From: a virus
DNA: 20,906 nt
Strand: one strand, 5' to 3'
IMG/VR virus record: IMGVR_UViG_3300030117_002791
Coordinates: 1-20,906 of that record
In this document: one piece after another, positions 19,587 through 20,906 of the stretch
Layout of the letters: each line of letters opens with the position of its first letter
Numbering within the stretch: position 1 is the stretch's first letter
The notes under the pieces: generated by a model
Databases searched by the model: none
What the model was told of the DNA's origin: nothing
The model's input: the letters and a program-made list of their open reading frames with translations, nothing else
Program-made: the position numbers and the translations under genes

Positions 19587-19819
19587 TGATATTTGGATTT
19601 TTTAAAAAACTAATTAAACATTACATAGATAAGTTTATTGATTGGATGCGTATGGTTAAGTTTGATATAGAATTAGAAACTCAAATAAAAAAATTTCACG
19701 AAGATTGGTTAAGAGAAAATGCAAAAGAAAAACCTAAAGTAATAGAAAAAGGTACGTTTGGAGAAGATGGCTGGTCTATTTCTATTGGAGATATAGATGA
19801 CGAAGATACCAAAAATTGA
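19586..19819 (+). CDS. Small amphipathic/basic protein, unknown
   Basis: A 77-residue protein: a strongly amphipathic N-terminus (IFGFFKKLIKHYIDKFIDWM, 2-21) that could lie on a membrane, a helical middle (IELETQIKKFHEDWLREN), then a Gly/acidic C-terminus (KGTFGEDGWSISIGDIDDED). The ATG overlaps the previous TAA. Its last 23 bases overlap the next gene. No family is recognised with certainty; association with the small membrane genes around it suggests an envelope-related role, which is inference. Confidence 0.55.
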   Translation: MIFGFFKKLIKHYIDKFIDWMRMVKFDIELETQIKKFHEDWLRENAKEKPKVIEKGTFGEDGWSISIGDIDDEDTKN

Positions 19820-20426
19820 AATAAAAGAGGTTTACATTCCAAAGATAAGAACATGGGAAGTGCAGCCACCAATATTAGATTTAATTACTAAACCAGTTGT
19901 CGATATTCCAGGATGTGTTGATGCTCATAGAAATAATTTAACAGGACTGATAAATGAAGATGAACTAGGCACATATCAAGCCTGTGGTACGTTTGATATT
20001 CCTAGCTATGAGCCACTTGAATATAACCCTGCAAATTTTACATATACTGCACCTGCAAAACAACAGGAACAAAAGCAACAGCAACCTCCACAGCAAAAGC
20101 CTCAGATTCCACAAAAGAAAAAAGATAAAAAATTAGAAATCCCACCCTGTCCTAGTAACAAAGAGCAGAAAATCGGGGATTTTCGTAACGATAAAAAGCT
20201 GGAACGTGTTATTGCTTATGAAAGAGGGCAAAATGGGATTGAATGTATCACTTTGTATGAAGACGTACCGTTTATCTCTCAATACATTCCAAGTTTTAAG
20301 CAGTTTACTGGGGTTTTTAGTCTTGCTTTGGTCGGCTGTTCTGCTCCGATCATTCTTAATTTAGTAAAACCAATAGTTAAAAACGTGATAAAGAAACTGA
20401 CAAATAAGAAAAAAGATGTAGAATAG
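19797..20426 (+). CDS. Pro/Gln-rich protein with C-terminal membrane segment
   Basis: A 209-residue protein. The N-terminal domain (1-83) has PPILDLITKPVVDIPGCVDA (24-43) and a second conserved-looking block YQACGTFDIPSYEPLEYNP (60-78). A low-complexity linker (about 84-115) is rich in Gln, Pro and Lys. A short folded part (117-160, PPCPSNKEQKIGD, RVIAYERGQNGIECITLYED) follows, then one membrane segment at about 171-190 (TGVFSLALVGCSAPIILNLV) and a basic tail. Similar cyanophage proteins are known to me as conserved hypotheticals, possibly virion-associated. The tail anchor and long flexible linker would let it span an envelope gap. It is the last gene before the structured noncoding region. 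Confidence 0.65.
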   Translation: MTKIPKIEIKEVYIPKIRTWEVQPPILDLITKPVVDIPGCVDAHRNNLTGLINEDELGTYQACGTFDIPSYEPLEYNPANFTYTAPAKQQEQKQQQPPQQKPQIPQKKKDKKLEIPPCPSNKEQKIGDFRNDKKLERVIAYERGQNGIECITLYEDVPFISQYIPSFKQFTGVFSLALVGCSAPIILNLVKPIVKNVIKKLTNKKKDVE

Positions 20427-20430
20427 TACA

Positions 20431-20498
20431 TAAGCAACCAGACCTGATAAAGAGTAGATTAAGTTCTACCTCCTCACTGTCAGAGCGTCAGTTGCTTA
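20431..20498 (+). repeat. 8-bp inverted repeat enclosing a 52-base loop
   Basis: TAAGCAAC (20431-20438) pairs perfectly with GTTGCTTA (20491-20498). Inside are a smaller stem GTAGA/TCTAC (20454-20458 / 20465-20469) and ACTCC-like ACCTCCTCAC (20468-20477). It begins 4 bases after the last gene. It does not fold as a tRNA: no D or T arm with proper loops and no CCA. It could be a small RNA or a 3' end stabiliser for the operon mRNA. Confidence 0.45.
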
Positions 20499-20501
20499 CT
20501 T

Positions 20502-20532
20502 AGCAAAAGTGTTTTTGAGATTGCCTTTTGCT
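20502..20532 (+). repeat. Perfect 8-bp hairpin
   Basis: AGCAAAAG (20502-20509), 15-base loop containing TTTTT, CTTTTGCT (20525-20532). No T tract follows the 3' arm, so it is not a standard terminator by itself. It lies between the larger inverted repeat and the first terminator. Confidence 0.45.
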
Positions 20533-20540
20533 TATAAATT

Positions 20541-20588
20541 AGTAGGTAGACTAATTGGAAGGGGTCTATCTACTTTTTTATTTTTAAG
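20541..20588 (+). terminator. Intrinsic terminator 1 at the end of the late operon
   Basis: AGTAGGTAGAC (20541-20551) pairs with GTCTATCTACT (20564-20574): 11 bp with one G:U pair and a 12-base loop. It is followed by TTTTTATTTTT. A competing small stem, AATTAG/CTAATT (20537-20542 / 20551-20556), uses part of the 5' arm. It probably ends transcription of the tail and small-gene operon. Confidence 0.75.
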
Positions 20589-20603
20589 GTAGAATGTTCA
20601 TCC

Positions 20604-20648
20604 GTAGATAAGTTTAATATTCGTGACTTGTCTACTTTAATTTTTTGT
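20604..20648 (+). terminator. Intrinsic terminator 2 (tandem, related arms)
   Basis: GTAGATAAGT (20604-20613) pairs with ACTTGTCTAC (20626-20635): 10 bp with one G:U pair, a 12-base loop, then TTTAATTTTTTG. Its arms resemble those of terminator 1. The 3' arm also supplies a possible -35 box (TTGTCT). Confidence 0.65.
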
Positions 20649-20675
20649 ATATAATATATATTACAAGTCTATAAT
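20628..20675 (+). promoter_or_regulatory. Promoter region with two TATAAT boxes
   Basis: TTGTCT (20628-20633), 16 bases, TATAAT (20650-20655) is a reasonable sigma70 promoter (4 of 6 at -35, perfect -10). A second perfect TATAAT is at 20670-20675, with TTGTAT at 20645-20650 (19-base spacing). They lie just after two terminators and just before the GC-richer segment, so a new transcript probably begins near 20663-20683. Confidence 0.5.
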
Positions 20676-20681
20676 TCGGTC

Positions 20682-20906
20682 ACTTCACTAGGTTGATCTC
20701 CCCCAGACCTCTTAGTTGTGTCTTTTATAGACAAGGGGGTAACTTAGCAACAGGCCCTACATATCCTCCTGTTAAATCAGGATGTGAGTTTCTGATGGAT
20801 CGTTCTGTTGTTTTTATTAGATCGGAGTTGTTACGCCTAGAGAAATACTAGGTTAGCCAACCTCTCTCTGATGCGGACTGAACAGCTTAGGCAACTGTTC
20901 GGGAGC
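20682..20906 (+). ncRNA. Candidate structured RNA (GC-rich, hairpin-dense)
   Basis: About 45% G+C by hand count (20691-20906) against roughly a third in the rest of the window, with no convincing ORF. Perfect short hairpins: TGTCT/AGACA within an outer CCCCC/GGGGG (about 20699-20739), AACAGG/CCTGTT (about 20749-20773), ATCAG/CTGAT (about 20776-20795), CCTAG/CTAGG (about 20836-20852), AGGTT/AACCT (about 20850-20863), GAACAG/CTGTTC (about 20879-20899). ACTAGGTT occurs twice (20688 and 20848). It lies just downstream of TATAAT boxes. It is not recognised as a tRNA, tmRNA, RNase P RNA or group I intron. It is cut by the window edge. Confidence 0.4.

Follow-up and report, generated by a model that had tools for sequence, protein, structure and literature searches.

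A candidate modular small noncoding RNA gene, headed by promoter-like sequence, in a pocket between two convergent siphovirus genes

What does the GC-rich and apparently noncoding end of a sequenced stretch of siphovirus DNA specify? The window, i.e., the whole stretch of 20,906 nucleotides that was analyzed, comprises bases 1-20906 of the siphovirus record IMGVR_UViG_3300030117_002791 (full record 22,434 bases; 22.4 kb). It carries lambda-like tail genes for a central tail fibre J (phrog_31), a tape measure protein, a minor tail protein, and a tail fibre protein. The major head protein is apparently split in two ORFs (575-1054 and 1105-1551), the first of which matches only positions 8-143 of the 351 of phrog_247; a frameshift or an assembly error is possible. 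A first-pass annotation had flagged positions 20682-20906 as GC-rich, and indeed this segment has 44.9% G+C, compared with 34.5% in the whole window, with only 0.13% of 225-nt windows being as high. The described repeat was also found: ACTAGGTT has just two plus-strand copies in the window, at 20687 and at 20847, and its reverse complement occurs once, at position 339. ARAGORN found neither a tRNA nor a tmRNA.

The segment is part of a pocket between the gene for a 209-aa protein and a convergent partner gene (phrog_848), which lies outside the window, downstream in the record. Starting from the upstream gene, the pocket contains M1, M3, a terminator-like hairpin, M0, a promoter-like site, M14, M2, and M15 (Table 1). 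These elements form two units, each headed by a promoter-like site: unit 1, with M1, M3, and the terminator-like hairpin (20431-20586), and unit 2, with M14, M2, and M15, which extends from 20664 to past the window edge. Accordingly, the segment edges had to be revised: the RNA would start near 20664 instead of 20682, and the neighboring unit 1 had been overlooked. Two TATAAT boxes had been placed upstream of the RNA. In a search from 20401 onward, both boxes were found, at 20650 and 20670, but the latter lies inside the RNA, as part of M14 stem A.

Table 1. Elements of the pocket, in window coordinates.
Feature	Position	Strand	Basis
Upstream gene, 209 aa, phrog_570, flanking the pocket	19797..20426	+	ORF and phrog match
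Promoter-like site of unit 1, CTGACA-16 nt-TAGAAT, in the 3' end of ORF 19797-20426	20397..20424	+	promoter scan
Module M1, R1 structured RNA family, extended hairpin with internal loops	20432..20498	+	covariance model R1, folding z, pair counts
Module M3, small hairpin TTAGCAAAAG...CTTTTGCTTA	20500..20536	+	sequence; folding z -2.19
Hairpin followed by T-run, likely end of unit 1	20542..20586	+	folding z -3.91
74-nt stretch (M0, promoter, first bases of M14), exact repeat at record 20917-20990	20599..20672	+	
Hairpin M0 (GTAGATAAG...CTTGTCTAC), smallest pocket content among relatives	20604..20635	+	sequence comparison
Promoter-like site of unit 2, TTGTCT-16 nt-TATAAT	20628..20655	+	promoter scan; -10 spacing in relatives
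Module M14, start of unit 2	20664..20744	+	relatives
M14 stem A	20667-20674 with 20725-20732	+	covariation
M14 proposed pseudoknot stem B	20700-20704 with 20735-20739	+	compatible variation in L210 and L232
Module M2, divergent R1 family member	20745..20814	+	covariance model R1, 38.7 bits
Module M15, interrupted by assembly gap (record 20907-20916)	20816..20906	+	relatives

The RNA had been said to continue past the window edge, and indeed M15 is interrupted there by an assembly gap of 10 Ns. In the record, this gap is followed by an exact copy of 20599-20672 and then by the convergent gene. The window M15 is identical across 91 nt to that of a podovirus-type locus (L229), which extends past the gap point, and the bases after the gap and the repeat (TCTAGCCTACTCTAATTTATGAG) match the M15 end of L211, L213, and L234. 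Both matches suggest that in the true sequence M15 most likely runs directly into the convergent gene. The 74-nt repeat (gap plus repeat correspond to L003:508-591) is probably an assembly or strain-variant artefact.

To see the pocket in related phages, we fetched 80 relatives with the 209-aa upstream protein. Twelve were dropped, since the second gene was absent, and 68 loci with the phrog_848 partner were kept. In 11 of them the two genes overlap and the pocket is empty, while in 57 it is filled: 21 pockets of at most 34 nt hold one hairpin (M0), 31 hold longer strings of short modules, and 5 hold a long insert (574-2225 nt). The RNA modules, of 40-110 nt each, are short hairpin modules strung in many combinations, and the content differs among close relatives; some pockets hold genes instead.

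Several side observations were made in these pockets. The pocket gene at L004:6625-7200 resembles, by eye, an MT-A70 type adenine methyltransferase, a reading for which we take its DPPW motif as the basis. Long inserts directly after the upstream stop in L005, L006, L021, and L115 share recurring GATTGATTTGAG- and AGGTGTTAA-like phrases without evident coding and are possibly another, larger RNA; those of L007, L010, and L059 open near-identically (TAACATTGTTACG) after this stop and apparently contain ORFs. Further recurrent hairpin modules of approximately 55-75 nt, for example, TACAAGGAGAG...CCCTTGTA and AGCATTG...CAATGCT, were seen in L015, L022, L027, L033, L037, L041, L044, L055, and L064. 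Pfam contained no family for five flanking proteins.

Modules M1 and M2 belong to one structured family, R1. A pattern scan of IMG/VR listed at least 120 matches, many of them by chance, and the R1 element is present in many contigs. A covariance model was built from 30 rows, among them M1 and M2, which scored 67.4 and 38.7 bits, respectively; as model rows, they do not give independent scores. The model reached at least 38 bits in 60 of 70 chosen sources, the model-building rows included. In the alignment fitted to the model (72 matches, 58 distinct rows), which leans towards the structure of the model, both-sided changes were detected at 16 of 19 pairs (shuffled mean, 7.5), 95.5% of the cells were paired, and the covariation score was 0.375 versus 0.184 for shuffled alignments, a value that no shuffle reached. 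The covariation was lost when the partners were slid. An unfitted MAFFT alignment still had both-sided changes at 13 of 19 pairs. The clearest helix is the four-pair P2, which occurs as GTTG/CAAC, GTCA/TGAC, GCTA/TAGC, and GCCA/TGGC, with GCAA/TTGC, ATCG/CGAT, and ACCG/CGGT as further variants. The R1 helices contain U-G type pairs, and the outer stem is commonly AAGCAAC/GTTGCTT. A three-way-junction fold had both-sided changes at 9 of 16 pairs, but its third helix was broken in divergent members, and the extended hairpin (13 of 19) was preferred for this reason.

One scan, whose search pattern partly set the 5' end of M14, gave 23 stretches, and 20 of them contain this module; the remaining three (L222, L223, and L224) contained unrelated-looking high-GC sequence and were left out. 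Stem A of M14 occurs as GTCTATAA/TTATAGAC, GTTTATGA/TTATAAAC, GTTCA/TGAAC, and CTTTC/GAAAG and covaries in L220, L225, and L232, changes that demonstrate this predicted helix. Stem B, proposed to form a pseudoknot, is CCCCC/GGGGG, with compatible variation in L210 and L232 only and with AACCC/GGGTT in L232, the one variant that mainly supports it; we consider the pseudoknot likely. M15, whose conserved core was partly set by the search pattern, was present in 13 of 14 stretches, the remaining match (L227) being judged a chance match. Its consensus in relatives is a branched RNA of approximately 107 nt with both-sided changes at 6 of 28 predicted pairs. Thus, the covariance-model check that had been suggested turned out positive, with covariation in M1/M2 (R1), M14, and M15.

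Folding energy gave a different picture of the segment, which had been described as hairpin dense and structured: the structure is borne out by covariation, but an excess of folding energy is not. The minimum energy of 20670-20906 was not above chance when compared with shuffled sequences (z of -0.39 for the plus strand and -1.39 for the minus strand), and the unit 2 modules taken singly gave z values of -0.55 (M14), -1.14 (M2), and -1.08 (M15 of L234). Unit 1 does stand out (M1, -3.94; terminator hairpin, -3.91; whole unit 1, -4.6).

Could the segment instead be a small protein-coding gene? Its sole ORF, of 52 aa with a TTG start, would speak for this, as would one frame of the R1 core that is open in many members. 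In line with the first-pass annotation, which had seen no good ORF, no relative keeps the 52-aa ORF in frame. Across 21 M14 loci, none of the three frames was kept; each is broken by stops and by a 1-nt indel, which lies inside M14 and shifts the frame. Furthermore, the compensatory changes track the helices, and for the R1 core the helix covariation together with frame-breaking indels ruled out a coding reading. We regard a protein-coding gene as hardly credible. Compensatory changes in relatives, the lack of a conserved ORF, and promoter-like sequence directly upstream all agree with the proposed structured noncoding RNA.

No known RNA class had been recognized, and this held up: none of the 4227 families of Rfam 15 matched the window or 16 relative loci at the curated threshold, and relaxed E-values yielded chance-level matches only in the window, the relatives, and the single units. 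Comparison of the window segment and the modules with isolate phages by blastn gave no match or short chance matches only, and no report of such an RNA family was found in the open-access literature. Phage small RNAs as a kind are already known; a cassette arrangement in which RNA modules are shared would, to our knowledge, be a new form of them.

If the modules form an RNA gene, is it transcribed from its own promoter and in a fixed direction? Among 59 R1 loci tested, 50 have a homologue of a flanking gene, and in all 50 the element is sense to the upstream gene; the other 9 have neither gene. A TANAAT -10 box lies over or next to the stop codon of the upstream gene in 52 of 52 short-hairpin pockets (21/21 of at most 34 nt and 31/31 longer short-module pockets) and in 0 of 16 others (0/11 empty and 0/5 with long inserts). 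The loci behind these counts, those for orientation included, are related to one another and do not represent independent events; for the box, there are 9 + 22 distinct gene ends with it and 15 without. A protein-end allele traveling with the pocket could also be the source of the link between box and pocket. The box is present as well in pockets that hold M0 alone, without a larger RNA after it. When modules that are first in their array were considered, a -10 box with at least 5 of 6 matches was detected at 3-12 nt in 32 of 54, compared with a mean of 8.6 and a maximum of 16 in 500 shuffles, and -10 boxes are found upstream of M14 in relatives at a nearly constant distance. A promoter scan of 20350-20906 revealed two promoter-like sites, one before each unit, a count that is not significant (shuffles average 1.8). 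In the podovirus locus L213, no site passed the criteria of the promoter scan.

The same modules occur in T7-like podoviruses. In five of them (L206, L207, L209, L213, and L217), a unit headed by M14 follows a TATATT box and has a terminator-like hairpin at its end. L213 contains M14, M2, and M15 in the order of the window, followed by an R1 element, and its RNA points at the end of the following gene. That gene, an ORF of 244 aa, corresponds to one annotated as an exonuclease in Prochlorococcus phage P-SCSP2 (homology by gene order and by eye). In L232, the RNA unit and the genes around it are on opposite strands.

These data bear on the reading of the modules as decorated bidirectional terminators or 3'-end stabilisers, which would end convergent late mRNAs and protect their 3' ends, the elaborate structure being of help. 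The modules are located at gene ends, commonly a few bases from the stop codon, convergent genes need terminators, and several modules end in a T-run. Intrinsic terminators combine a short-looped, GC-rich stem with a run of U's behind it. The hairpin of unit 1 is strong and has a T-run after it, and it may be such a terminator, but a terminator scan of 20350-20906 (loop limit, 8) found none and did not report it. The R1 cores are far more elaborate than such a terminator. Moreover, a bidirectional terminator need not have a fixed strand, whereas here it is fixed in 50 of 50 loci; the podovirus unit has both a -10 box and, apart from the modules, a terminator-like hairpin, and it runs against the neighboring genes; and the L088 group has a core without the outer stem, with a terminator-like hairpin as a separate element after it. 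We therefore consider terminators or stabilisers an unlikely explanation, albeit one with real points in its favor.

Fixed orientation also weighs on the idea of a DNA-level element that folds as single-stranded DNA, be it a mobile hairpin, an attC-like recombination site, or an attachment, packaging, or origin site. Modules that are gained, lost, and joined in tandem, and terminal inverted repeats such as TAAGCAAC/GTTGCTTA, would fit such an element; the strand fixed in 50 of 50 loci, the U-G type pairs in the R1 helices, and the linkage of the -10 box to short-hairpin pockets would not. In passing, no recombinase gene was noticed next to it. Integron attC sites have the core boxes RYYYAAC and GTTRRRY, which the outer stem of R1 misfits at the second and third positions. 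The first-pass annotation had named a packaging, attachment, or origin site as its alternative. This was not upheld, since 11 of 68 relatives do without any pocket content, which is hence not essential, the contents vary among close relatives, and the same modules are found elsewhere in other phages. A DNA-level element is, in our judgment, very improbable.

A third possibility is a cis-acting leader (riboswitch, attenuator, or put-like antiterminator) that controls a downstream gene; put antiterminator RNA renders RNA polymerase resistant to terminators. M15 is located directly before co-directional genes in L236 (with TTGACA, 15 nt, and TATATT upstream) and L233, the order in the L088 group is motif, terminator-like hairpin, and gene, and in L148 the motif precedes a small gene and also a large ORF that looks terminase-like by eye. 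At the two commonest sites, however, the next gene is convergent, which leaves nothing downstream to regulate. This makes downstream regulation unlikely there and favors action in trans. As a general explanation we find a leader improbable, while M15 may also serve as a leader in view of L236 and L233.

The modules appear to be exchanged between phages. Over 103 nt, window positions 20649-20751 match L057 at 99% identity, although the flanking proteins of the two share only 63.5%; for 20650-20813 and L086, the values are 89.7% for the DNA and 33% for the flanking protein. This suggests that the modules are either more mobile or more strictly conserved than the genes next to them. The closest named isolates of the window siphovirus are Prochlorococcus phages such as MED4-184, with 33-40% protein identity; some uncultured single-cell virus records are closer, and the pocket of the named isolates contains a different sequence. 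For L232, the closest isolate portal protein is that of P-SCSP2 (78%), which has other sequence in the gap corresponding to the podovirus RNA site. That gap (L237:2120-2253) contains a terminator-like hairpin, CCCTAG...CTAGGG, then a T-run, and is perhaps another small RNA. The viruses sharing the modules probably infect cyanobacteria. At odds with this, a contig of the window's phage type with an R1 element (L218) comes from a single-cell assembly labeled Alphaproteobacteria (AG-426-I04).

How does this cassette relate to known systems? GOLLD and ROOL, which are carried by some phages, are likewise ornate structured RNAs. They are large, whereas the units here are modular and of approximately 80-400 nt, and no match to their covariance models was obtained. 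Morons are transcriptionally autonomous genes inserted between phage genes, and they usually encode proteins. Like a moron, the cassette has its own promoter-like sequence and occupies, in some relatives but not in others, the space between two genes that otherwise adjoin (filled in 57/68, empty in 11/68); its predicted product differs in being a noncoding RNA of swappable modules, with no conserved reading frame. Morons have been described for the Prochlorococcus siphovirus P-SS2 (PMC2784084). Among the cyanophage RNAs on record are manA, wcaG, PhotoRC-II, glnA, abiF, and CfrI (PMC2864571, PMC9964418, PMC12197685). The Rfam families manA, wcaG, glnA, and PhotoRC-II are also structured RNAs of marine cyanophages, but are mainly predicted to act as 5' UTR regulators of metabolic genes (PMC2864571, PMC9964418), and their Rfam models miss the elements described here. 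CfrI of cyanophage S-PM2 is likewise noncoding, intergenic, and of similar size (approximately 225 nt), but as described there it is antisense to psbA (PMC12197685), whereas by eye no psbA was noticed near our loci.

Taken together, the comparison of relatives demonstrates, at the level of sequence, conserved structure, a fixed strand, a noncoding nature, gain and loss of modules, sharing across unrelated phage types, and linkage of the -10 box to short-hairpin pockets. We estimate a probability of about 0.66 that the segment is the 5' part of a modular structured small noncoding RNA gene, carried in the pocket as a cassette headed by a sigma-70-type promoter, i.e., an "RNA moron." In such a gene, host RNA polymerase would start at the edge of the first module, each module would be one folding domain, and the RNA would end at a terminator hairpin or at the stem of the last module followed by U's. 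The free RNA could then bind a host (or competing) protein or RNA. The horizontally exchanged modular small-RNA cassette probably acts in trans; its specific trans role and its target are guesses. That modules turn over quickly among close relatives suggests that the role is a contested one, for example, host takeover or counter-defence.

In the reading of phage genomes, attention goes to proteins, and noncoding pockets tend to be skipped. Our broadest proposal, which we put forward tentatively and with more doubt than conviction, is that unrelated marine cyanophage types recombine shared structured RNA domains into promoter-headed pocket RNA genes. This combinatorial RNA arsenal would be the RNA counterpart of swappable counter-defence and host-takeover genes. 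If the segment is indeed part of a modular RNA gene, a family of RNA domains travels with greater ease between siphoviruses and T7-like podoviruses than the genes around it do, and close relatives exchange modules. Since the nearest named isolates of both types are Prochlorococcus phages, distant for the siphovirus and closer for the podovirus, a role of phage RNA in takeover or counter-defence could be directly testable by infecting a model strain.
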